This document shows positions 23,810-35,499 of a stretch of 64,000 bases of DNA, piece after piece; the stretch's first letter is position 1, and each line of letters begins with the position of its first letter. Location of the stretch: assembly GCF_001434475.1 (NCBI RefSeq), contig NZ_AZGF01000003.1, positions 62,001 through 126,000 of the forward strand, given 5' to 3'. Made by a program: the position numbers and the translations under genes. The DNA comes from Paucilactobacillus suebicus DSM 5007 = KCTC 3549 (GTDB taxonomy: Bacteria; Bacillota; Bacilli; Lactobacillales; Lactobacillaceae). Under the pieces are notes generated by a model, which made no database searches, was not told where the DNA came from, and was given only the letters and a program-made list of their open reading frames with translations.

Positions 23810-24373
23810 CTAATCGCCGTCCCAACGTTTATCATAGTCATTTGTAATATGCAATGAATCTAGAATTTTCATTGTTTGATGATCAATAAGATCCTGAATT
23901 GATGCTGGATGATTATAAAATGCCGGAATTGGCGGAATAATTTGTGCGCCAATTTTTGCTAATTTAGTCAAGTTTTCAAGATGAATCACGCTTAACGGTG
24001 ATTCGCGAGGAACAATGATCAACTTGCGTTGTTCTTTGATTGTGACATCCGCTGCTCTGCCAATTAAGTTATCCGCAAACCCGTACGCGATGCCAGCAAC
24101 CGTCTTCATGCTTGCAGGTACGATGATCATTCCGTCATGTAAGAATGAACCACTGGCAATTTTGGCGCCCTGATCACTGTTACTGTACACATAATCGGCT
24201 AATTCACTGATCTCTTGGAAAGAATAGTCGGTTTCAAGAGCAAGATTTTTCTTTGCCCACGTGCTTAAAACCAGGTGTGTTTCAATATCTGGCATGTCGT
24301 GCATTTTTTTTAGCAGATCGATGGCATAAATTGTTCCTGACGCTCCTGTCACTCCAATCACAATTCGCTTCAT
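23810..24373 (-). CDS. lpdB: UbiX-family flavin prenyltransferase (LpdB-like)
   Basis: The 187-residue protein makes prenylated FMN, the cofactor of UbiD decarboxylases, from FMN and dimethylallyl phosphate. It begins MKRIVIGVTGASGTIYAIDLL, with GASG for FMN phosphate. KIASGSFLHDGMIIVPASMKTVAGIAYG and VPRESPLSVIHLENLTKLAKIGAQIIPPIPAFY are the family signatures. The ATG at 24373 has GGAGG nine bases upstream. It lies 21 bases after the gallate-decarboxylase-like gene, so the cofactor maker and user are co-transcribed. Confidence 0.9.
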   Translation of the reverse strand: MKRIVIGVTGASGTIYAIDLLKKMHDMPDIETHLVLSTWAKKNLALETDYSFQEISELADYVYSNSDQGAKIASGSFLHDGMIIVPASMKTVAGIAYGFADNLIGRAADVTIKEQRKLIIVPRESPLSVIHLENLTKLAKIGAQIIPPIPAFYNHPASIQDLIDHQTMKILDSLHITNDYDKRWDGD

Positions 24374-24394
24374 TGTCATAATCCTCCCTACCAA

Positions 24395-25870
24395 TTACTT
24401 CAAATATTTTTCCCAATCAGGGACTTCCATGAACTGAGCCCGCTCGAACTGATCTTTCATATCAAATGGGACTGTTCCATCGATCACTAGTTTTGATGAC
24501 ATACCACGAACCCGGATTGACTTTGGATCGTACTCTGGCCGTTCTGATGGATCCAGGGGATGATTTCTCATGCCGGATAAAATCATTAAATCTTGATCGG
24601 CTTGGAAACGGGTATTCATCGTCCAAATCACATCGTTCATATCAAATATATCCACGTCTTCGTCAACTAAAATAACCGTCTTTAATTCCTTGAATGCTGA
24701 AAATGCTAGTAACGCTGCTTGACGTTGAATACCTTCATCGGCCTCATTATCCTTATGAATTTGCATAATGGTCATCAACTTACCACCGCCTGCAGGTGGA
24801 TTATAAACGTTTTTAACTTTGCCTGGGATTGCACGGTCGACTAATTGTAGAATGCTGGCTTCAGTCGGAATACCCGCCATGCTGACATGCTCTTCACTTG
24901 GACCAATGACACTCTGCATGATTGGATCATTTTTTCGGTGAGTCACCGCGGTTACTTTAATCACTTGAAGTGCTGGATTAGCGTCTCCATCATACCCAGG
25001 AAATTCTGGCATTGCTTTACCAGTATGGGTATTAATGTCTTCTTGAATTCGTTCGTTAGGCATAATATATCCTTCAAGCGTATATTCAGAACGGGCGATG
25101 GCATTTTCATCAACGGTTAGTCCCTTAACTAAATCGACAGGTTGTTGACGAATGGCACCAGCAACACCTAGCTCGTTGTATCCGAATGGTGTTGTTGGTG
25201 GCTCAAATGTTGCACCAATGGTAACTGCCGGATCGAGCCCAATATTGATAGTAATTGGCATTGGTTTATTGGCCTTTTCGTATTCTTCGGCAAACGCACC
25301 AATATGACGACCACCTGGCATAATATAAATGCCAATCTTGTCTTTATCTTCTAACACCATTCTATGAATAGTGACGTCACTCTTTGACTTATCCAAACTG
25401 GATCCAAGTACTACCCCAATTGTGATGTATGGTCCAGCGTCTTGAGGTGTATTAGTTGGTGCTGCCACCAATTTACGGATATCAAAATCAGCATCTTCAG
25501 CTCGATGCACAACTTCATGGGCAGGTGCATCCTTTTCTTCGACCATTGTGGGCCAAACAGGATTTGAAACAGCATCGTTCAAGTATTTACCTAGTGTTTT
25601 ATAATCGGTGTGGAAAATTTTTCCAACTCTTTTACGACTAGCCATTAGCCCTGTTAAAACTCGGACGCCAGGAAATCCTTTGACATTATTAAACATCATC
25701 GCGGGACCTTCCTTAGTTGGCCGCTGCACGGTACCACCTGCACCGATATAGCGATAAACGCCGGATAATTCAGCAACGGGATCAATTTCTACATCGGTTT
25801 CGTGATACTGAGTATCATCGTTTTTGATTTCATCAAGTACTTCTCGTAGATCATATTTCTTTTCAGTCAT
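24395..25870 (-). CDS. lpdC: UbiD-family gallate/phenolic acid decarboxylase (LpdC-like)
   Basis: The 491-residue product has the prFMN-dependent UbiD fold. NTPQDAGPYITIGVVLG and HRMVLEDKDKIGIYIMPGGRHIG lie in the N-terminal half, and EGYIMPNERIQEDINTHTGKAMPEFPGYDGD holds the catalytic E-R-E region. RGMSSKLVIDGTVPFDMK ends the protein. As I remember it, the sequence closely resembles Lactiplantibacillus plantarum gallate decarboxylase LpdC, about 490 residues, which turns gallate or protocatechuate into pyrogallol or catechol. The ATG at 25870 has GGAGG eight bases upstream. It is paired with a UbiX-type gene and a divergent LysR. No small LpdD gene is next to it here. Confidence 0.9.
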   Translation of the reverse strand: MTEKKYDLREVLDEIKNDDTQYHETDVEIDPVAELSGVYRYIGAGGTVQRPTKEGPAMMFNNVKGFPGVRVLTGLMASRKRVGKIFHTDYKTLGKYLNDAVSNPVWPTMVEEKDAPAHEVVHRAEDADFDIRKLVAAPTNTPQDAGPYITIGVVLGSSLDKSKSDVTIHRMVLEDKDKIGIYIMPGGRHIGAFAEEYEKANKPMPITINIGLDPAVTIGATFEPPTTPFGYNELGVAGAIRQQPVDLVKGLTVDENAIARSEYTLEGYIMPNERIQEDINTHTGKAMPEFPGYDGDANPALQVIKVTAVTHRKNDPIMQSVIGPSEEHVSMAGIPTEASILQLVDRAIPGKVKNVYNPPAGGGKLMTIMQIHKDNEADEGIQRQAALLAFSAFKELKTVILVDEDVDIFDMNDVIWTMNTRFQADQDLMILSGMRNHPLDPSERPEYDPKSIRVRGMSSKLVIDGTVPFDMKDQFERAQFMEVPDWEKYLK

Positions 25871-25937
25871 AATCAAAACCTCCATTACTTGTTTACAATG
25901 GTTATTTTAAGTTATTTAGCCATTGCTAACAAATCGT

Positions 25938-25947
25938 GTTTAGACTA
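25938..25947 (-). repeat. Inverted copy of the motif TAGTCTAAAC
   Basis: GTTTAGACTA is the reverse complement of the core found at 20778 and 23681. Here it lies in the lpdC/LysR divergent promoter region, without a long hairpin. Confidence 0.45.
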
Positions 25948-25949
25948 AC

Positions 25950-25970
25950 ATTATTCCTAAATGGAATAAT
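25950..25970. promoter_or_regulatory. Perfect dyad in the lpdC/LysR intergenic region
   Basis: ATTATTCC-TAAAT-GGAATAAT has perfect 8-bp arms. It ends three bases before the LysR start and so could occlude translation or transcription of LysR. A second, looser repeat CAATGG/CCATTG lies at 25896-25925. The spacing fits LysR recognition (T-N11-A). Confidence 0.65.
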
Positions 25971-25973
25971 AAA

Positions 25974-26894
25974 ATGGAGATGACTAAGTTGACAATTGAC
26001 GATCTCAAAAGCTTTGTTAAATTGAACGAAGTAATGAATGTGTCCGATACTGCAATTCAATTATCGATGACGCAGTCTGCCCTTTCAAAAAGAATTCAGG
26101 CTATGGAAAAAGAACTCGGTTCACAGTTAATCTCAACTAAAAATAAACGCCACCTAGTAATTACAGAAAGTGGAGACGTCCTTTACCGGTATGCGCAGAC
26201 TATTTTGACACAGTTTGGTCTGATGGAAGACGAATTGGAGCAGTACCGTGAATTAAAAAAGGGAACTCTGCGAATTGGTAGTATTCCAGTGATGTCTCAG
26301 TTTGGACTGATGCAGATTATTGATGAATTTATGACAAAGTTTCCGCAAATAAATATTAGTCTTGAGGAAACCGAAGGAGAACAGTTACTTACTCAATTAA
26401 GATCCGATAATTTTGATTTAGGAATTATCAGAGACGTTCAATCTAACTTACTAAACCGCTCTCAATATGAATTTATTGATTTAGATACGGATGAATTGAA
26501 AGTAGTTTTGCCTGTGTCGCATTCTTTGGCAAAGGAAAAATCTTTGACGATTAATCAACTAGTTGATTCAGATATTGCTACCCTTCAACCAGGTTCCGGG
26601 ATCTATGAGATTGTTAATGAACTATTTAATGAAGCAGGCCACACCCCGAATATCAGATTTACATCTACCCATATTGAAACACTGATTAAAGTGGTGGCTA
26701 ATGCTAATCGTGCAACTTTTTTGTTTAATAACTCAATCAAGGATTTACCCCGTGATCAGTTTGTAATTTTACCATTTACCAAGCCAATCTATAGTAATCT
26801 ACAAGTCGTTTATCACCATGGCAACCTATCACAAGCCGGTAAGCGGTTCGTGGATTTTTTAATAAACTCCAAAACAAAAACGACCAGTGATTAG
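25974..26894 (+). CDS. LysR family regulator divergent from lpdC
   Basis: The protein of about 306 residues has the LysR HTH (LKSFVKLNEVMNVSDTAIQLSMTQSALSKRIQAMEKELGSQLI) and a two-lobed effector domain beginning near TLRIGSIPVMSQFGLMQII. Start choice is uncertain. The ATG at 25974 has no good site, while a TTG at 25989 has GGAG nine bases before it and yields a normal N-terminus. Its position back to back with lpdC makes it the likely sensor of gallate-type phenolic acids. Confidence 0.85.
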   Translation: MEMTKLTIDDLKSFVKLNEVMNVSDTAIQLSMTQSALSKRIQAMEKELGSQLISTKNKRHLVITESGDVLYRYAQTILTQFGLMEDELEQYRELKKGTLRIGSIPVMSQFGLMQIIDEFMTKFPQINISLEETEGEQLLTQLRSDNFDLGIIRDVQSNLLNRSQYEFIDLDTDELKVVLPVSHSLAKEKSLTINQLVDSDIATLQPGSGIYEIVNELFNEAGHTPNIRFTSTHIETLIKVVANANRATFLFNNSIKDLPRDQFVILPFTKPIYSNLQVVYHHGNLSQAGKRFVDFLINSKTKTTSD

Positions 26895-26911: not shown

Positions 26912-27916
26912 CTATTTTTTCTCGTCGATTAAAATTGTACCCGGATTAGGGTTTTGTTTAATGGCGCCAATAATTTCATGTGGCGTGTAAAGTTCCTCAA
27001 GATAAGCCACATCATCTTTGGTCAATGAAACATCAAGTGCCGCTACCGCATCATCAAGATGTTTAGCTTTAGTGGATCCGACAATTGGGGATGTAACCCC
27101 TTTTGCCCACTGCCAAGCAAGTGCAATCTGTGACATGTTGACATTGTACTTTTTGGCCACTTCGTTAACACGTTCAACAATTCCCAGATCCTGCTGTTCG
27201 GCTAAGTCGTACTTTCCCATCGCTACACGGTCGGTTTTGCTACGCATTGTATCAGTTTTCCAGCCTAAATGACTGAGGTGCCCTGCAGCAAGTGGACTGT
27301 ATGGCATTAAAGAAACATTCATTTGTTGACAGATTGGAATTAGTTCTCGTTCGTCTTCTCGGTACAACAAATTATAGTGGTTTTCCATTGTTTGGAACTG
27401 TGCCCAACCATTATCCTTAGCTGCCTGTTGCATATTATAGAATTGATAGCCGTACATTGCTGATGCACCAATTGCGCGAACTTTTCCAGATTTAACTAGG
27501 CCGTTCAAAGCCGCCATGGTTTCTTCAATCGGTGTGTCATAATCAAAACGATGGATGATATAAAGATCCAGATAATCTGTGCCTAACCGATTTAAAGTTC
27601 CCTCAATTTCTCTTTCAATGGCCTGTTTGGATAGCCTACCTTCATTGAAGTACACCTTAGATGCAATTACCACATCGTCACGTTTTACGTTATTTTTGAG
27701 TGCCTTGCCGAGGTACTCTTCGCTGGTGCCCTGTGAATATGTGTTGGCAGTATCGAAAAAATTAATATTTAGATCCAATGCGTGCTTAATGACCTTCTCA
27801 CTGTCTGAGTAGTTCAGGGACCAATCATGCATGGTCCCGGGTTCACCGAAGCTCATTACACCAACGCATATCTGTGAAACTTTAATATTAGCATTTCCTA
27901 GAGTAGCGTATTTCAT
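26912..27916 (-). CDS. Aldo/keto reductase (YajO/Tas type)
   Basis: This 334-residue oxidoreductase has the longer AKR layout. Catalytic residues lie in FFDTANTYSQGTSEEYLG, VVIASKVYF and LYIIHRFDYDTPIEETM, and the NADPH loop lies in SPIVGSTKAKHLDDAV. The ATG at 27916 has GAAGG seven bases upstream; a TTG at 27922 is an inferior start. It lies downstream of the cyclophilin-like gene (25-base gap), so it should fall under the MerR-type promoter at 28316-28346. Physiologically it probably reduces reactive aldehydes. Confidence 0.88.
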   Translation of the reverse strand: MKYATLGNANIKVSQICVGVMSFGEPGTMHDWSLNYSDSEKVIKHALDLNINFFDTANTYSQGTSEEYLGKALKNNVKRDDVVIASKVYFNEGRLSKQAIEREIEGTLNRLGTDYLDLYIIHRFDYDTPIEETMAALNGLVKSGKVRAIGASAMYGYQFYNMQQAAKDNGWAQFQTMENHYNLLYREDERELIPICQQMNVSLMPYSPLAAGHLSHLGWKTDTMRSKTDRVAMGKYDLAEQQDLGIVERVNEVAKKYNVNMSQIALAWQWAKGVTSPIVGSTKAKHLDDAVAALDVSLTKDDVAYLEELYTPHEIIGAIKQNPNPGTILIDEKK

Positions 27917-27940
27917 GTTCAAACCTTCTTTTTATAATTA

Positions 27941-28282
27941 TTAAAAAATATTTGCCTTAATCTGCTTGGTATTACCAAATTTTTCGGTTAAATCAGTTTC
28001 AAATTCACCTAAGTAAATCATTTTATAGGGTGCAATATTGGTGTTTGCTAATTGAAATGAAAGTACATTCCATTCTTGATAGTAGTATATTCCACCCAAA
28101 TGAACGTTAGACGTTTCTAATTCTTCGGACAAATCCAAATTTTGAGGAAGTTTTGCATAATATTCAATGTTCTCACGACGGGTTAATTCAACTTTCAATG
28201 GCAACATAGTTGTGAGAGAATCCATCGTTTTACTTGGCTGCATGTGCAATATAAATGGCAATTCTTCAATGCTAACTTTCAT
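27941..28282 (-). CDS. Cyclophilin-like fold protein
   Basis: The 113-residue protein has the small cyclophilin-like beta-barrel pattern. MDSLTTMLPLKVELTRRENIEYYAKLP is followed by GGIYYYQEWNVLSFQL and YKMIYLGEFETDL. Family members often lie next to oxidoreductases and are thought to bind small ligands; they are not proline isomerases in any proven sense. AGGAGG lies five bases before the ATG. It is the first gene of a two-gene unit with the aldo/keto reductase, under the 19-bp-spacer promoter at 28316-28346. Confidence 0.75.
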   Translation of the reverse strand: MKVSIEELPFILHMQPSKTMDSLTTMLPLKVELTRRENIEYYAKLPQNLDLSEELETSNVHLGGIYYYQEWNVLSFQLANTNIAPYKMIYLGEFETDLTEKFGNTKQIKANIF

Positions 28283-28315
28283 ATTGACCTCCTTAATAAT
28301 AACGTTTACAGATAT

Positions 28316-28346
28316 AGTGTAACCCTTTTAGTGCACTTTAATGCAA
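28316..28346 (-). promoter_or_regulatory. MerR/AdhR-type promoter of the cyclophilin-like/AKR unit
   Basis: On the minus strand the -35 is TTGCAT (28341-28346) and the -10 is TACACT (28316-28321), with a 19-bp spacer. The spacer is filled by a dyad close to CTTAAAG-N4-CTTTAAG (28324-28343). A 19-bp spacer with a central dyad is the hallmark of MerR-family activation. Confidence 0.75.
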
Positions 28347-28436
28347 GTACTTAAATTTAGTGGTTTTTAATTTAAGAAAACTAGGGTTAATTCGTAGAGC
28401 AGAATGGTAATACTTAATAAAGTGCGCGCAGATTTC

Positions 28437-28467
28437 TTGCATTACTGTTGCTATAAACCTTTATAAT
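28437..28467 (+). promoter_or_regulatory. Promoter of the tautomerase gene
   Basis: TTGCAT (28437-28442) and TATAAT (28462-28467) are separated by 19 bases, 43 bases before the start codon. The spacer length is the same as in the MerR-type promoters nearby, but I see no CTTAAAG-type dyad in it. Confidence 0.5.
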
Positions 28468-28509
28468 ATGTTTAGTAGTAAATTAATTTTTATCAAGGAG
28501 GCCGAAAAT

Positions 28510-28902
28510 ATGCCGCTATTACAATTTAATTTAGTAAAAAATGCTTGGACAAAACCACAGGTAAAGGAAATTTTGGATATTGCATATGATGTTACTCTCT
28601 CAGCATTTAATGCTCCCAATGGCGATCGTTATCAAACAGTTAGTTATTTTGATTCAGATGACCTGATAATGAAAGATACTGGACTGGGTTTTCAACGAAC
28701 TGATAAAAGAATTCTGCTAAATATCAGAACACGCCCACGTACCAATGACGAAAAAATAAAATTTTACCAGCAATTTTTAGCAATCTTACAAGAAAAAATG
28801 GGACTCGATCCGCATGACCTTATGGTAGATATGGTGGAAAATGGGGATGCTGATTGGAGCTTTGCTGATGGAAAGCCCCAGTTTTTAACTGGAGATTTAT
28901 AA
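28510..28902 (+). CDS. Tautomerase-superfamily protein (MIF/4-OT-like)
   Basis: The 130-residue protein starts MPLLQFNLVKN. Pro-1 after Met removal is the catalytic base of the tautomerase superfamily. Basic and acidic partners appear in NGDRYQTVSYFDSDDLIM and RILLNIRTRPRT. The length fits the single-chain cis-CaaD-like/Tautomerase_2 group, not the 60-residue 4-OT. The ATG at 28510 follows AGGAGG by eight bases; a longer start at 28468 would bury Pro-1. It stands divergent from the cyclophilin-like gene, inside a cluster of aldehyde-handling oxidoreductases. Confidence 0.78.
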   Translation: MPLLQFNLVKNAWTKPQVKEILDIAYDVTLSAFNAPNGDRYQTVSYFDSDDLIMKDTGLGFQRTDKRILLNIRTRPRTNDEKIKFYQQFLAILQEKMGLDPHDLMVDMVENGDADWSFADGKPQFLTGDL

Positions 28903-28904
28903 AA

Positions 28905-28955
28905 AAATAAGTGTATCCATTGATGAAATAATCTTTGGATGCACTTATTTTTTAT
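28905..28955 (+). terminator. Terminator of the tautomerase gene
   Basis: AAATAAGTGTATCCA pairs with TTGGATGCACTTATTT (one mismatch) around a longer loop, followed by a T-run. Confidence 0.8.
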
Positions 28956-28987
28956 TTGTTCGATATGACCAGAAAGCTTTTGTTTCG

Positions 28988-29542
28988 TTAGATATTTTTG
29001 ATTACTTTTGCTGGTGTTCCAACAGCAATACTGTTAGCAGGAATGTTTTTTGTTACCACAGCCCCAGTACCAATAATGGCATTTTCGCCAATTGTGACAC
29101 CTGGTAAGATACTAACTCGTGCCCCAATCCAAGCATTTTTCTTAATAGTGATTTCACCAGTCTTAATAACACGAATATTTTTAGGCTCATGATTGACACT
29201 AAAGATCCCAACTCCTGGTCCCATCATGACTCCATCTTCAATATTAATGGTACCAACTGACATCATGGTTAAATTATGATTTGCGTAAACATTTTTGCCT
29301 AAATTAACATTATTACCGCAGTCAATGAACATTGGTGGTGTGAAATACGTGCCGTCATGAATTTGATGATTCAACAACTCATTCTCCAATTTCACCAGTT
29401 TGTTTTTTTCGGCTGGATCGGTTGTATTAATCAGATGACAAAGATGGTCACTGCGATCAATCTCACCATGAACTTCTTTTTGATAGTTTTTGTTACGAAT
29501 GTCATATGATTTACCATTTCTAAAATCTTCAAAAACACTCAT
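28988..29542 (-). CDS. Hexapeptide-repeat O-acetyltransferase (Maa/LacA type)
   Basis: The 184-residue protein carries the N-terminal Mac domain (about 1-55) and left-handed beta-helix repeats such as INIEDGVMMGPGVGIFSV and ARVSILPGVTIGENAIIGTGAVVTKNIP. SVNHEP holds the catalytic His. It acetylates maltose, galactosides or similar sugars from acetyl-CoA. It lies 41 bases after the alcohol dehydrogenase gene and is probably in the same transcript. Confidence 0.9.
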   Translation of the reverse strand: MSVFEDFRNGKSYDIRNKNYQKEVHGEIDRSDHLCHLINTTDPAEKNKLVKLENELLNHQIHDGTYFTPPMFIDCGNNVNLGKNVYANHNLTMMSVGTINIEDGVMMGPGVGIFSVNHEPKNIRVIKTGEITIKKNAWIGARVSILPGVTIGENAIIGTGAVVTKNIPANSIAVGTPAKVIKNI

Positions 29543-29583
29543 TATTCCCCTTTCATGAATCCTCAGATGAGCATATAAATTAT

Positions 29584-30621
29584 TTAATCATTGACGATTA
29601 AATATGACTTGATCGCCTGACGTTGGTCCATTGCATCATATGCTGCTTGAACATCATCTAGCTTGAATTCTTTGGTGAATACCTTTCCTGGATTGATTTT
29701 TCCATCTAAAACAGCTTGCAGTAAAACTTCTTTGTCGTAAGTTGTAACGGAAGCAATGCCCCCACGCAAACCAATGTTTTTCCAGAATAAATTATTGGTA
29801 TTCATAGATGCTTTTTGCGGTACACCCACACGACCAACTACTGCCCCAGGGCGGCCAACTTTAACTGCTGTATCTACAGATTGTTCCGTACCAACACACT
29901 CAAGCACTGCGTCTGCACCAGTACCGGTTAATTCCATGACCTTGTCAATCGCTTCATCGCCACGTTCTTCGACAATATCAGTTGCTCCAAATTCCCGAGC
30001 CAATTTTTGACGATCTTCATGACGGCTCATTGCAATGATCCGTTTAGCACCGCGAAGTTTGGCTGCAATAACGCCACATAGCCCAACGGCACCGTCACCC
30101 ATTACGACCACGGTATCACCTTCTGAAACTTCTGCAGATACCGCCGCATGATAACCAGTGGCCATGACATCTGCAAGCGTAACAAATGACTTTAATTGGC
30201 TTTCGCTGTAGTCACTAGGTTGACCTGGAATTTTAACGAGTGCCCAGTTAGCGTTAGTGAATCGTAAATACTCACCCTGATACCCGCCATTACCCCCGTT
30301 TTCTTGATTGAGACAATTACCATCAAACCCAGCTAAACAAGCAGCACAGTGACCACATCCATGCGTAAATGGTGCGATAACGAAGTCGCCAGGTTCAAAG
30401 TTACTAACTTCATTTCCAACTTCTTCAACGATTCCGATTGCTTCGTGGCCGACAAGACTATTCCTAGTTCTTTCTGCAATTCCTCTAAACCACCATAAAT
30501 CAGACCCACAAACACTAGCCCTTACGATTTTGATAATTGCATCCGTTGGCTTTTGAATATCTGGTCTTGACACCTCATGAATTTCAACCTTGCCTGGTTC
30601 GATAAACGCTGTTGCTTTCAT
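29584..30621 (-). CDS. Zinc-dependent alcohol dehydrogenase, MDR family
   Basis: The 345-residue enzyme shows catalytic Zn ligands C38 (in VCGSD), H59 and E60 (GHE). The structural Zn Cys cluster is C89, C92, C95 and C103. The cofactor site VVMGDGAVGLCGVIAA is followed by SRHEDRQKLAREFGA, a sequence that favours NADP. The closest functional group is the secondary-alcohol or threonine-dehydrogenase-like class. Its promoter has the perfect AdhR-type dyad CTTAAAG-N4-CTTTAAG in a 19-bp spacer, so an aldehyde-induced role is likely. It leads an apparent operon with the acetyltransferase. Confidence 0.88.
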   Translation of the reverse strand: MKATAFIEPGKVEIHEVSRPDIQKPTDAIIKIVRASVCGSDLWWFRGIAERTRNSLVGHEAIGIVEEVGNEVSNFEPGDFVIAPFTHGCGHCAACLAGFDGNCLNQENGGNGGYQGEYLRFTNANWALVKIPGQPSDYSESQLKSFVTLADVMATGYHAAVSAEVSEGDTVVVMGDGAVGLCGVIAAKLRGAKRIIAMSRHEDRQKLAREFGATDIVEERGDEAIDKVMELTGTGADAVLECVGTEQSVDTAVKVGRPGAVVGRVGVPQKASMNTNNLFWKNIGLRGGIASVTTYDKEVLLQAVLDGKINPGKVFTKEFKLDDVQAAYDAMDQRQAIKSYLIVND

Positions 30622-30667
30622 TATGAATTCCTCCTTGTGAAATATAACTTCTAAACTTTATGTTGCT

Positions 30668-30698
30668 AATATAGACCTTAAAGTACACTTTAAGGCAA
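30668..30698 (-). promoter_or_regulatory. MerR/AdhR-type promoter of the alcohol dehydrogenase
   Basis: On the minus strand TTGCCT (30693-30698) and TATATT (30668-30673) are 19 bases apart. The spacer contains a dyad with perfect 9-bp arms (CCTTAAAGT / ACTTTAAGG, 30676-30695). Its inner part is exactly CTTAAAG-N4-CTTTAAG, the AdhR box form described for Bacillus subtilis. Confidence 0.85.
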
Positions 30699-30715
30699 TA
30701 CCTAAATTTAATTTT

Positions 30716-31084
30716 TTAATACGGTTTAGCGGTAATGTACAAAATTTTCCATTGATCGACATTTTTTTCGAGATGCAATGTTAATTCAAGCGACCAAGTA
30801 TTTCTTAAGCCGTGAATGTCGGCATCAACACGACTTTGACCAACTAACACCGCACTATTGTGAGTTAATTCAATTATGTCAACATGTTCTTCTGTGGATG
30901 AATAGTAATTCATACCACCTGTTTCAATTTCATCTAACCACTTCACTTTGTTTTGTTTCATGCCACTCATATGAGCAAGATAAAAGTTATCATCTAAAAG
31001 ATTACCAAGTTTAACGATGTTGCCATCAACCATATATTCATTGTGTTGGCGATATATGTTAATGATTTCTTCTCTATTAGTCAT
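30716..31084 (-). CDS. NTF2-like (SnoaL/DUF4440) protein
   Basis: The 122-residue protein has the NTF2-like cone fold pattern. A helical start (MTNREEIINIYRQHNEYMVDGNIVKLGNLL) is followed by FYLAHMSGMKQNKVKWLDEI and three beta strands ending WKILYITAKPY. Such proteins can be small enzymes or binding proteins; no catalytic set stands out. It has its own MerR-type promoter at 31114-31144, divergent from the SDR gene, so it belongs to the same probable regulon. Confidence 0.75.
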   Translation of the reverse strand: MTNREEIINIYRQHNEYMVDGNIVKLGNLLDDNFYLAHMSGMKQNKVKWLDEIETGGMNYYSSTEEHVDIIELTHNSAVLVGQSRVDADIHGLRNTWSLELTLHLEKNVDQWKILYITAKPY

Positions 31085-31113
31085 GTTTCACCTCATTAAT
31101 TTTTTTCACGATT

Positions 31114-31144
31114 AGTGTATGCCCTTGAAGTAACATTAAGGCAA
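31114..31144 (-). promoter_or_regulatory. MerR/AdhR-type promoter of the NTF2-like gene
   Basis: TTGCCT (31139-31144, minus strand) and TACACT (31114-31119) have a 19-bp spacer. A dyad of the CCTT-N-AAG type spans 31123-31141. The -10 is the same hexamer as in the promoter at 28316. Confidence 0.75.
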
Positions 31145-31172
31145 GGCATTTCAAAAAATTTTAATTTACCCC

Positions 31173-31203
31173 TTGCCTTCAAGCTACTTCAAGGTTGTAA
31201 ACT
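31173..31203 (+). promoter_or_regulatory. MerR/AdhR-type promoter of the SDR gene
   Basis: TTGCCT (31173-31178) and TAAACT (31198-31203) have a 19-bp spacer that contains CCTTCAAG and CTTCAAGG (31176-31194). It faces the divergent copy at 31114-31144, and the two operator regions are inverted relatives of each other. Confidence 0.75.
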
Positions 31204-31238
31204 GCATTTGAAAAATTATTTTATCTTAGGAGATTATT

Positions 31239-32081
31239 ATGACAAGTAAAAAAACATGGTTAATTACTGGTGTTAGTAGTGGATTCGGATATGAGTTGAC
31301 AAAACAACTGTTAAAAAAAGGTGACATAGTTGTCGGTACTGTTAGAAAACTAGATGGTGTAAAAGACTTTACTGATCAGTATCCAGACACTTTTTTTAGC
31401 AAAATATTGGATGTTACAGATACTCCATCAATTCATAAGGTTGTAAATGAAGTATTTACTAAATTTAAAATTGATGTTCTTGTAAACAATGCTGGCTATG
31501 GTTTGTTCGGTGCAGCTGAAGAATTAAGTGATGAGCAAGTTGATCGTATTTTAAATACAGATCTAGTTGGCTCAATTCAAATGATTCGTTCATCACTGCC
31601 ACATTTCCGTGAACAGAAACACGGCCGCATTATTCAAATTTCTTCATATGGTGGTCAAGTTGCATATCCTGGCAATTCAATGTACCACGCAGCCAAATTT
31701 GGGATCGAAGGATTTGTAGAATCAGTGGCTCAGGAAGTGGCATCGTTCAATATTGGTGTAACAATTGTAGAACCAGGTGGTGCTCGTACCGAGTTCCGTT
31801 ATGGTAGTGCTCAAGTTGCAGATGAATTACCAGCATACGATGGTAATCCAGCTCATGATTTCAAGAAAATGCTTGATCCCGCTAATGGTTTAGCACCTGG
31901 TGATCCAGCACGAATGGCTGCACGAATTATTGAAAGTGCGGATAAGAATCCTGCCCCATTGAGAATGGTCCTTGGTTCAGAAGCTTTAAAGAACACTATT
32001 AATACACTGGAAAAGAGAATTAATGACTATAAGAGTCAGACGGATTTAGCGGCTTCAACAGACTTCCCTACAGGCGAATAG
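31239..32081 (+). CDS. Short-chain dehydrogenase/reductase (classical SDR)
   Basis: The 280-residue enzyme has the cofactor motif TGVSSGFG (about 8-15), VNNAGYGLFG, and the catalytic Ser in ISSYGGQVAYPGNS followed by YHAAK. This is the classical S-Y-K triad. GTVRKLDG after the second strand favours NADP(H). It resembles oxidoreductases that are common beside MerR-type regulators in lactobacilli. Its promoter has the 19-bp MerR spacer. A short hairpin (32096-32116, GAACATTT/AAATGTTC) follows without a good T-run. Confidence 0.9.
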   Translation: MTSKKTWLITGVSSGFGYELTKQLLKKGDIVVGTVRKLDGVKDFTDQYPDTFFSKILDVTDTPSIHKVVNEVFTKFKIDVLVNNAGYGLFGAAEELSDEQVDRILNTDLVGSIQMIRSSLPHFREQKHGRIIQISSYGGQVAYPGNSMYHAAKFGIEGFVESVAQEVASFNIGVTIVEPGGARTEFRYGSAQVADELPAYDGNPAHDFKKMLDPANGLAPGDPARMAARIIESADKNPAPLRMVLGSEALKNTINTLEKRINDYKSQTDLAASTDFPTGE

Positions 32082-32446: not shown

Positions 32447-33660
32447 ATTTTTTCCCCGAATTGTCAAACCAAGTGCAACAAATAGACCTATTTCAAAAAA
32501 TTGGTATAGTTAGTCAGCTAACTCGGGAACAATGTCCGCAGGACATTTATAGTCCAAGCACCTTCTTGGACGGTGATTAAGTGTATATTGAACTTCTTGA
32601 ATATCAATAATGGAAAAATCTTTGAATGATTTTCCTTTAGGAAAGAATTCTCGAAGTAAGCCATTAGTGTTTTCATTGGTGCCACGCTCCCAAGGTGAAT
32701 AAAGGTGAGCAAAATAGACATCTGTTCCAGAAACATTATCCAGCAATGCAAACTCACTACCATTGTCGAACGTTATTGTGCTGAAGTGTTGAGATCCATA
32801 GTTATCAATGACAGACTGAAGTGCCTTTCGACAAGTATCAGCGTGATAATTTGAGATCTTCACTATTATTTCTAATCGACTTGAGCGTTCCGTCAAAGTC
32901 ATTAGTGCAGGTTCAGTGTCGACACGCTTTGCCTTAATTAAATCACCCTCCCAATGTCCAAACTCAACTCGTTTTTCAACGCTGGCTGGATGCAATTCGA
33001 TTGATTTACCCAGTATTTTTTTATTGATTCTGTTATGGCGCTTACCAGCATGTTTTACACGACGGCGTAGTTTAATTGGTAGATCTTGATTTCTCAATGA
33101 AAAAAGGTTGCACTCAATATATCTGTACACCGTTGGTGTTGAAGGGCATGGGTAACTCGGATAATTCTGTCTAAACCAATGTACAAATGTATCAACACTG
33201 TGTAAACTCGGCTTTGATCTAAGTGCTTTAGTGAGTAACTCAATAAAGAATCCACATTTGGCAAATAGTCCTTTCCAAACACAATGTGAACGATGTTCAC
33301 GATAAACGGCTTCACCAGTATCTGCAAAATAGGTTGTATAAGCACAATGTCGCTGAGAATCTATCTGTGTTGTTGTGCCTCGTTTCAGTTCACGATATAC
33401 AGTACTTGCATTACGTCCGATTAAATCTGCAATTTTATGAACTGGAACACCGAGTTTATAAAATGATTCAATTTGCCCACGCTCATATGATTGTAGTTGT
33501 TGGTAGTGCCTGTGAGTAGTATTCTTAGATTGGGTCATGAAGAGATTCCTTTCTTACTTTGTTTAGTCGCTTATAAGAATAGGTCTTCATGGCCTTTTTA
33601 TCTAGACTAAATGGTCTAGTTGGTTAATGTTGCACTTCGATTTTAAATCGGGGAAAAAAT
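32447..33660 (-). mobile_element. IS30-family insertion sequence
   Basis: The transposase gene is bracketed by imperfect terminal inverted repeats of about 33 bp. Left and right ends share ATTTTTTCCCCGA (13 of 13) at the tips and AAGTGCAACA (10 of 10) at the inner side, with a diverged middle. The length is about 1.21 kb. I see no clear target duplication. It sits between a transposase remnant and the glnA terminator. Confidence 0.85.
32510..33538 (-). CDS. IS30-family transposase
   Basis: The 342-residue transposase has an N-terminal HTH (YERGQIESFYKLGVPVHKIADLIGRNASTVYRELKRG) and the DDE catalytic core. The first Asp is in FGHWEGDLIKAKR, the second in ITFDNGSEFA, and the Glu in ERGTNENTNGLLREFFPKG. 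This order and N-E-N-x-N-G are typical of IS30. The frame is intact from ATG to stop. The element therefore may still be active. Confidence 0.93.
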   Translation of the reverse strand: MTQSKNTTHRHYQQLQSYERGQIESFYKLGVPVHKIADLIGRNASTVYRELKRGTTTQIDSQRHCAYTTYFADTGEAVYREHRSHCVWKGLFAKCGFFIELLTKALRSKPSLHSVDTFVHWFRQNYPSYPCPSTPTVYRYIECNLFSLRNQDLPIKLRRRVKHAGKRHNRINKKILGKSIELHPASVEKRVEFGHWEGDLIKAKRVDTEPALMTLTERSSRLEIIVKISNYHADTCRKALQSVIDNYGSQHFSTITFDNGSEFALLDNVSGTDVYFAHLYSPWERGTNENTNGLLREFFPKGKSFKDFSIIDIQEVQYTLNHRPRRCLDYKCPADIVPELAD

Positions 33661-35118: not shown

Positions 35119-35499
35119 TTATCGGAGCTTGGGACTAGTTGGAGACATACCTTGCAGTCCGCCAGCACGGAGAATTTCATCATGAAGAATTTCGCGAACA
35201 TCATCGTCTGTTAGTGTCTTACTTTGTTGTTCTTTGCGGTGTTCTTGATCCAGTTGCTTCTGCATAAAGATTTCTCGAATGCCGGCCATATTAAGACCCT
35301 CATCAAGATAATCTTTAATTTCCAGTAAACGATCAACGTCGTTTAGTGAGTACAGTCGGCGATTACCATCACTGCGCTCAGGCTTAATCAACTCCTGAGT
35401 TTCATAATAGCGAATCTGCCTTGCAGTTAAGTTGGTCAATTTCATCACAGTACCAATTGGCAAGACTGCTAATGAACGTCTGAGTTCCTTTTCCTTCAT
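35119..35499 (-). CDS. glnR: Nitrogen regulator GlnR (MerR family)
   Basis: The 126-residue repressor has a MerR-type HTH (LPIGTVMKLTNLTARQIRYYETQELIKPERSDGNRRLYSLNDVDRL). Its short C-terminal tail (residues 85-126) senses feedback-inhibited glutamine synthetase. It represses glnRA when nitrogen is plentiful. A perfect GlnR box lies upstream at 35566-35582. The gene leads the glnRA operon, the usual Firmicute arrangement. Confidence 0.95.
   Translation of the reverse strand: MKEKELRRSLAVLPIGTVMKLTNLTARQIRYYETQELIKPERSDGNRRLYSLNDVDRLLEIKDYLDEGLNMAGIREIFMQKQLDQEHRKEQQSKTLTDDDVREILHDEILRAGGLQGMSPTSPKLR

Follow-up and report, generated by a model that had tools for sequence, protein, structure and literature searches.

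A probable MerR-type detoxification regulon of Lactobacillaceae with two operator spacings and a cysteine-less candidate regulator

The DNA considered here is a stretch of 64,000 nucleotides from Paucilactobacillus suebicus DSM 5007 (contig NZ_AZGF01000003.1, positions 62,001 to 126,000; C23:62001-126000 in our contig numbering), hereafter called the window. It contains four similar promoters, P1 to P4, which appear to belong to a MerR-type regulon. P1 (28316-28346, minus strand, TTGCATTAAAGTGCACTAAAAGGGTTACACT) precedes the gene for a cyclophilin-like protein (27941-28282, minus; PF18050, Cyclophil_like2), followed by a second gene coding for an aldo/keto reductase (AKR; 26912-27922, minus; PF00248). 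P2 (30668-30698, minus, TTGCCTTAAAGTGTACTTTAAGGTCTATATT) stands before the gene for a zinc-type alcohol dehydrogenase (Zn-ADH; 29584-30621, minus) and, behind it, that for a hexapeptide-repeat acetyltransferase (28988-29542, minus). P3 (31114-31144, minus, TTGCCTTAATGTTACTTCAAGGGCATACACT) is located before the gene for an NTF2-like protein (30716-31084, minus; DUF4440), and P4 (31173-31203, plus, TTGCCTTCAAGCTACTTCAAGGTTGTAAACT) before the gene for a short-chain dehydrogenase/reductase (SDR; 31239-32081, plus). A preliminary description of this sequence had proposed the same gene identities and placed four promoters at these coordinates, and we found both to be correct.

All four promoters combine a TTGC.. 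-35 element, a 19-bp spacer, a TA...T -10 element and a dyad within the spacer (P1: TTGCAT-19-TACACT; P2: TTGCCT-19-TATATT; P3: TTGCCT-19-TACACT; P4: TTGCCT-19-TAAACT). This is the architecture of a MerR-type promoter, in which a spacer of 19-20 bp encloses a dyad. The preliminary description had seen a single promoter form at these positions. The -35 element, the spacer length and the dyad are indeed common to all four promoters, but the dyad comes in two lengths. P1 and P2 contain CTT.AAGT-NN-ACTT.AAG with N4 between the heptamers (even form; degenerate in P1), whereas P3 and P4 contain CTT.AAGT-N-ACTT.AAG with N3 between the heptamers (odd form), so that the odd dyad is one base shorter. 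In both forms alike the left half-site overlaps the -35 element and the -10 element is kept 19 bp away. The even box CTTAAAG-N4-CTTTAAG is reportedly the operator of AdhR, a MerR-family regulator of Bacillus subtilis. As described earlier for the alcohol dehydrogenase promoter, an exact copy of this box is present in P2 (30677-30694, 0 mismatches); the P1 copy is degenerate and the spacing in P3 and P4 is odd. By number of mismatches to the motif of their form, P2 (0) is followed by P3 and P4 (1 each), and P1 (2) is the weakest of the four. When the window was scanned with the full promoter motifs of both forms at up to 2 mismatches, P1 to P4 were the only matches, compared to a total of 2 matches in 200 dinucleotide shuffles. 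The AdhR-like box alone, at up to 3 mismatches, was not enriched in the window (5 matches vs 4.98 expected from shuffling).

We then consider the entire host genome (2.65 Mb, 81 contigs). With at most 2 mismatches it contains six even and four odd sites, and the reversed-pattern controls gave 0 for both forms. Enrichment of the motif elsewhere in the genome, which the preliminary description had named as a check, was thus confirmed. Outside the window, even sites precede an operon coding for flavodoxin, an NAD(P)H-binding protein and a MerR protein on contig C11, a gene for an Na+/H+ antiporter on C15, a gshF-like gene for glutathione synthesis on C45 (L076:4924-4954; a perfect site of TTGACT type) and a second Zn-ADH gene (site at C23:13194) with an acetyltransferase gene nearby. 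The odd sites outside the window precede an MFS pump gene on C11 and a gene for an NAD(P)H-binding protein on C15. The second Zn-ADH gene, with its even site and hexapeptide acetyltransferase gene (L162, C23:11694-14724), represents a paralog of the P2 unit in altered gene order. We did not adopt gshF as a sure member of the regulon, as the outer bases of its site differ (ACTT..AAGT); another MerR protein may own this TTGACT-type class because such sites precede cupin genes in three other genomes (G149, G125 and G071). Loose scans of the whole genome without the -35 element gave counts near the control level (even core: 31 vs 30 reversed; odd: 30 vs 21), and therefore only better matches were considered. 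A weak odd match from the loose scan on contig C22 (L077) was dropped because this locus has no site above background.

The MerR protein of the C11 operon (C11:41210-41611, 134 aa) is the candidate regulator. Its N-terminal winged helix-turn-helix (C11:41210-41413) matches PF13411 with 56.3 bits (cut-off 21.6). Among the 13 MerR_1 genes of the host genome this is the one that fits and that is nearest to the NmlR/AdhR models; the only MerR_1 gene in the window, at about 35266-35460, is GlnR-like. These observations agree with the earlier proposals that the GlnR-like gene is the sole MerR-type gene inside the window and that the regulator is encoded elsewhere in the genome, and they support a MerR-type regulon with AdhR-like promoters. 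The presence of a MerR regulator gene in the genome, on which the preliminary description had made its proposal depend, is likewise confirmed. The closest model to C11 MerR is NCBIfam NmlR, with an alignment of residues 1-116 to 1-116 and a score of 111.3 bits that is below the cut-off of 175. Cysteine is absent from all 48 orthologs (two partial sequences among these) and from all 56 members of a wider set that includes partial sequences. Residue 52 is Gln, and the sequence QMR is conserved in at least 95% of 53 aligned sequences. In view of the missing cysteine, of Gln52 and of the score of 111 bits against 175, AdhR proper is not supported as the regulator. C11 MerR may work like AdhR, yet we do not class it as a member of AdhR/NmlR. 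In the host, genes for a phenolic acid decarboxylase (PF05870) and a PadR-like protein are located directly after the MerR gene (C11, L074:15663-16866). We rejected this padC/padR pair as a key to the signal, since a search of the 55 named ortholog loci found no homolog of either gene.

A search with the C11 MerR protein returned 57 named loci, mainly from Levilactobacillus, Secundilactobacillus, Lactiplantibacillus, Pediococcus and Furfurilactobacillus. At up to 3 mismatches these loci contain 86 even and 39 odd matches (a few are counted in both forms), and reversed patterns gave 0. Half-site spacing was examined in 48 ortholog loci (L078-L125), counting both strands. With at most 1 mismatch, we found 54 strand-hits at N1, 114 at N2, and none at N0 or N3-N8. 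With at most 2 mismatches the numbers rose to 66 and 148, compared to 2-8 at other spacings and 0-30 in the reversed-half control. The -35/-10 spacer in the same loci measures 19 bp in 77 of 79 even sites and in 37 of 41 odd sites.

The two forms also share target genes. In 113 chosen sequences, 180 of the 185 sites with at most 2 mismatches have an open reading frame starting within 260 bp, and for 160 of these 180 the distance is at most 60 bp. The sequences were partly picked for holding sites: they include all 30 odd sites of the 15 ortholog genomes other than that of the window, 20 selected even sites, and 10 of the 13 genomes that have odd sites but no close ortholog. Furthermore, some G-numbered records duplicate the contigs of named loci, and the tallies remove identical proteins only. 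Because of this site-based choice and the duplicate contigs the gene-family tallies are not independent; read with this limit, they place six families behind both forms (distinct proteins, odd/even), namely NAD(P)H-binding proteins (28/23), MFS (12/13), flavodoxin (4/20), MerR itself (3/7), Zn-ADH (1/19) and AKR (3/2). SDR (8), Fe-ADH (3) and NTF2-like proteins (2) occur behind the odd form only, and cupin (3) and carboxymuconolactone decarboxylase (CMD; 2) behind the even form only.

Odd sites co-occur with the regulator. Among 151 genomes they are present in 15 of 16 with an ortholog at a cut of at least 70% and in 13 of the 135 others (p 3e-12), and at a cut of at least 63% in 17 of 25 compared to 11 of 126 (p 1e-9), where the Fisher test overstates independence because the genomes are related. 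Of 48 ortholog rows, 32 have an even site and 13 an odd site as the nearest one upstream, which on a quick tree amounts to at least 4 switches of form. For the MFS and NAD(P)H-binding genes we counted at least 3 switches each; in these quick trees many forks lack support and some terminal branches are long, including that of the window's own row. The site directly upstream of the MerR ortholog (at most 102 bp) is even in seven cases and odd in three, and the odd ones lie 66-78 bp upstream in three species (L079, L123, L124). Over the first 70 residues, 51 are identical among even-site orthologs, odd-site orthologs and the host MerR.

Homologs of the window genes were surveyed by tblastn in 55 loci, at distances of up to about 5 kb from the MerR ortholog. 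Zn-ADH homologs with 71-87% identity are present in 31 of these. NTF2-like proteins appear in seven (identity is 55-56% in two loci of Pediococcus and lower in the others), and the SDR, with 72-78% identity, is found next to the MerR ortholog in three (L081, L082, L083); in L082 and L083 the tblastn match lies 67-68 bp downstream of an odd site. In two Pediococcus loci the MerR ortholog has an acetyltransferase gene with 79% identity as its neighbor, and the acetyltransferase is also found behind odd sites in G190 and G281. The cyclophilin-like gene was found near the MerR ortholog in none of the 55 loci. This protein is rare (8 of 397 genomes, the host included), and five of the seven loci elsewhere have odd sites, either directly before the gene (L229, L230) or before its operon (L226, L227, L228). 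NTF2-like homologs are encoded behind odd sites in L. brevis (L183/L184), G190, G097 and G068. In G190 the MerR ortholog is followed, in this order, by a divergent odd site (3 mismatches), the genes for NTF2, the acetyltransferase and the cyclophilin-like protein, another odd site and the gene for an NAD(P)H-binding protein. Families that stand behind three separate promoters in the window therefore share one operon beside the regulator in G190. The earlier suggestion that the cyclophilin-like and NTF2-like genes belong to the regulon is supported through this comparison with other genomes. The first 30 or so residues of the NTF2-like open reading frame of G097 (L236:1498-1953) are similar to the beginning of the gene preceding the cyclophilin-like gene in L227, as though two regulon genes had fused after a deletion.

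We consider it likely that one MerR-family activator, encoded at C11, acts on all four window promoters. A detoxification regulon across Lactobacillaceae is well supported by genome comparison. The analysis shows how the promoters are built, that the sites are enriched, that they are linked to and co-occur with the MerR gene, and that cysteine is absent. One regulator without the usual sensing cysteine probably runs this regulon and apparently reads two site spacings. From the sequences we infer binding and activation by this regulator, the nature of its signal, and sensing by means other than a reactive thiol. According to PMC9909328, a MerR dimer is bound in an over-long spacer, and a signal-driven distortion of the DNA realigns the -35 and -10 elements. 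As with MerR proteins in general, a dimer of C11 MerR would occupy the over-long spacer of 19 bp, and signal binding would lead it to distort the DNA such that RNA polymerase can use both elements. The protein appears to accept half-sites separated by either one base pair (CCTTNAAGT-N-ACTTNAAGG) or two (CCTTNAAGT-NN-ACTTNAAGG) while the 19-bp distance between -35 and -10 is fixed. With moderate confidence we propose that a single cysteine-less MerR reads both N1 and N2 spacings at a constant 19-bp spacer, and that the two geometries have been swapped repeatedly at orthologous lactobacillar genes, perhaps as a way of tuning induction strength across a large detoxification regulon.

The regulon would combine small oxidoreductases with an efflux pump and with accessory proteins that bind ligands. 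Its task would most likely be the clearing of reactive carbonyl, phenolic or similar compounds of plant fermentations, sensed without a thiol. Many of the host species live in fermentation habitats. We suggest such compounds as the signal because these habitats point there, and so do the target set (oxidoreductases, an efflux pump and small ligand-binding folds, with CMD and cupin in relatives) and a plasmid cassette of an olive Lactiplantibacillus pentosus described below.

Several observations weigh against one regulator with two spacings. Even sites are common, being present in 102 of 151 genomes, and 13 genomes have odd sites but no close ortholog; the relatedness of the genomes behind the Fisher test counts on the same side. 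In G003 an odd site is located 1.7 kb from a MerR gene of only 27% identity, and in G281 a different MerR gene adjoins an odd-site operon, so that related MerR proteins may read the odd box. Residue 9 alone separates the small groups of even and odd orthologs. Concerning the targets, two of the seven other cyclophilin-like homologs have no site, and the same holds in the locus examined for 4 of 9 NTF2 homologs at 56-61% identity and for 16 of 20 at 37-44%. The cyclophilin-like match in G190 carries an in-frame stop. No close aldo/keto reductase was found near the MerR ortholog in the 55 loci (one has 24% identity); membership of this gene therefore rests on P1, with its 2 mismatches. Alternatively, C11 MerR could read the even sites and another host MerR the odd sites. 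For metal-sensing MerR proteins the half-site distance is treated as fixed per regulator, with 21-bp and 22-bp sites (PMC5045206), the host genome provides 13 MerR_1 genes, and other MerR genes are present near odd sites in G003 and G281. Such a division is unlikely in our view, since in three species an odd site stands immediately in front of the C11 MerR ortholog itself, odd sites track the ortholog (15 of 16 vs 13 of 135 genomes), the same gene families use either form, and the host MerR genes L004, L006 and L009 adjoin operators of other sequence. Beside the host MerR genes L001, L003, L005 and L008 the operator scan found none, and for this reason these four could still be readers of odd sites.

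A true AdhR/NmlR regulon with cysteine-based sensing of formaldehyde or methylglyoxal would agree with the AdhR-like box at P2, with NmlR as the nearest NCBIfam model (111 bits) and with Zn-ADH among the targets. It would also match the CMD gene after an even-type site in Furfurilactobacillus-type genomes (G092, G061); yraC, a CMD gene, is also under AdhR control in B. subtilis (PMC11577753). However, PMC4776306 describes a Cys of the NmlR/AdhR clade (Cys52 in B. subtilis) as absolutely conserved and as needed for the response. The complete lack of cysteine in the 48 orthologs, Gln52 and the NmlR score below cut-off make this assignment very doubtful. Chance resemblance or ordinary sigma-70 promoters would be consistent with the chance-level counts for the AT-rich box alone at up to 3 mismatches and for the loose even-form genome scans. 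The four real matches compared to 2 in 200 shuffled windows, the reversed controls of 0 and the position of the sites just before genes in relatives render this explanation scarcely credible.

The single cysteine-less regulator that we propose can be compared to several known systems. AdhR (YraB) of B. subtilis is likewise a MerR-family protein, and the even box is reportedly its operator. An alcohol dehydrogenase and a CMD protein are among its targets too (PMC11577753). Unlike C11 MerR, which has Gln52 and no Cys, AdhR needs Cys52 (PMC4776306), and the available AdhR text names none of the odd sites or NTF2-like, cyclophilin-like and MFS targets seen here. NmlR of Haemophilus, Neisseria and Streptococcus provides the nearest curated model, aligned over residues 1-116, but C11 MerR scores below its cut-off and lacks the conserved cysteine. 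The best solved-structure match to C11 MerR is a Listeria MerR regulator (PDB 3gp4; 4.4e-31, residues 1-132). We know of no role for this protein. Listeria relatives (L126-L129 and L131), with 44-48% identity, are Cys-less as well and are preceded by even-type sites (for L131 only when 3 mismatches are allowed). SoxR, CueR, CadR and other MerR-type activators share the 19-20 bp spacer enclosing a dyad (PMC9909328), whereas metal-sensing MerR groups have one site length each (PMC5045206) and we find two lengths around one regulator family.

The cassette on plasmid p3 of L. pentosus KW1 from olives (NZ_CP099554.1, L263) codes for a Cys-less MerR with 63% identity, together with an NAD(P)H-binding protein, AKR, cupin, CMD, SDR, an NAD(P)H oxidoreductase and MFS. 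In contrast to the regulon considered here, its sites are of the even TTGACT type (0-4 mismatches), with no odd sites. The plasmid is mobilizable, and transposase genes are located on the flanks of the cassette. A regulon reconstruction for Lactobacillales (PMC3616900) mentions NmlR and has no AdhR or aldehyde term in the main text. MerR genes of L. plantarum are induced by butanol (PMC7911632), and could not be matched to the ortholog of C11 MerR. Among the papers listed in literature searches we recognised no report of this regulator or regulon or of a MerR with two spacings; with many subscription papers outside their reach, this is weak evidence of absence.

Should one MerR dimer indeed work at half-site distances of both 1 and 2 bp, the notion of a fixed site length per regulator needs revising, and motif searches with a single spacing would miss parts of a regulon, in this case 4 of the 10 candidate promoters of the host genome. 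The proposal provides a defined and testable regulator and target set for the handling of reactive small molecules by plant-fermentation lactobacilli, including cider, beer and olive species. It also gives a common context to cyclophilin-like, NTF2-like and NAD(P)H-binding proteins that lack an assigned role.

Other genes adjoin the four promoter units. A Tautomerase_2 protein is encoded between the P1 and P2 units (28468-28902). The preliminary description had suggested a neighboring tautomerase as part of the regulon while calling it only a neighbor; no site of either form precedes this gene at up to 2 mismatches, and its membership is not supported. Next to the regulon, at 23810-26894, Pfam matches indicate UbiX-like (Flavoprotein) and UbiD-family genes with an adjoining LysR-type gene; the UbiX-like/UbiD-family unit is presumably a decarboxylase of hydroxybenzoate/gallate type. 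On the other side, just past the SDR gene, the window codes for an IS30-type transposase (HTH_38, rve) at 32510-33538.

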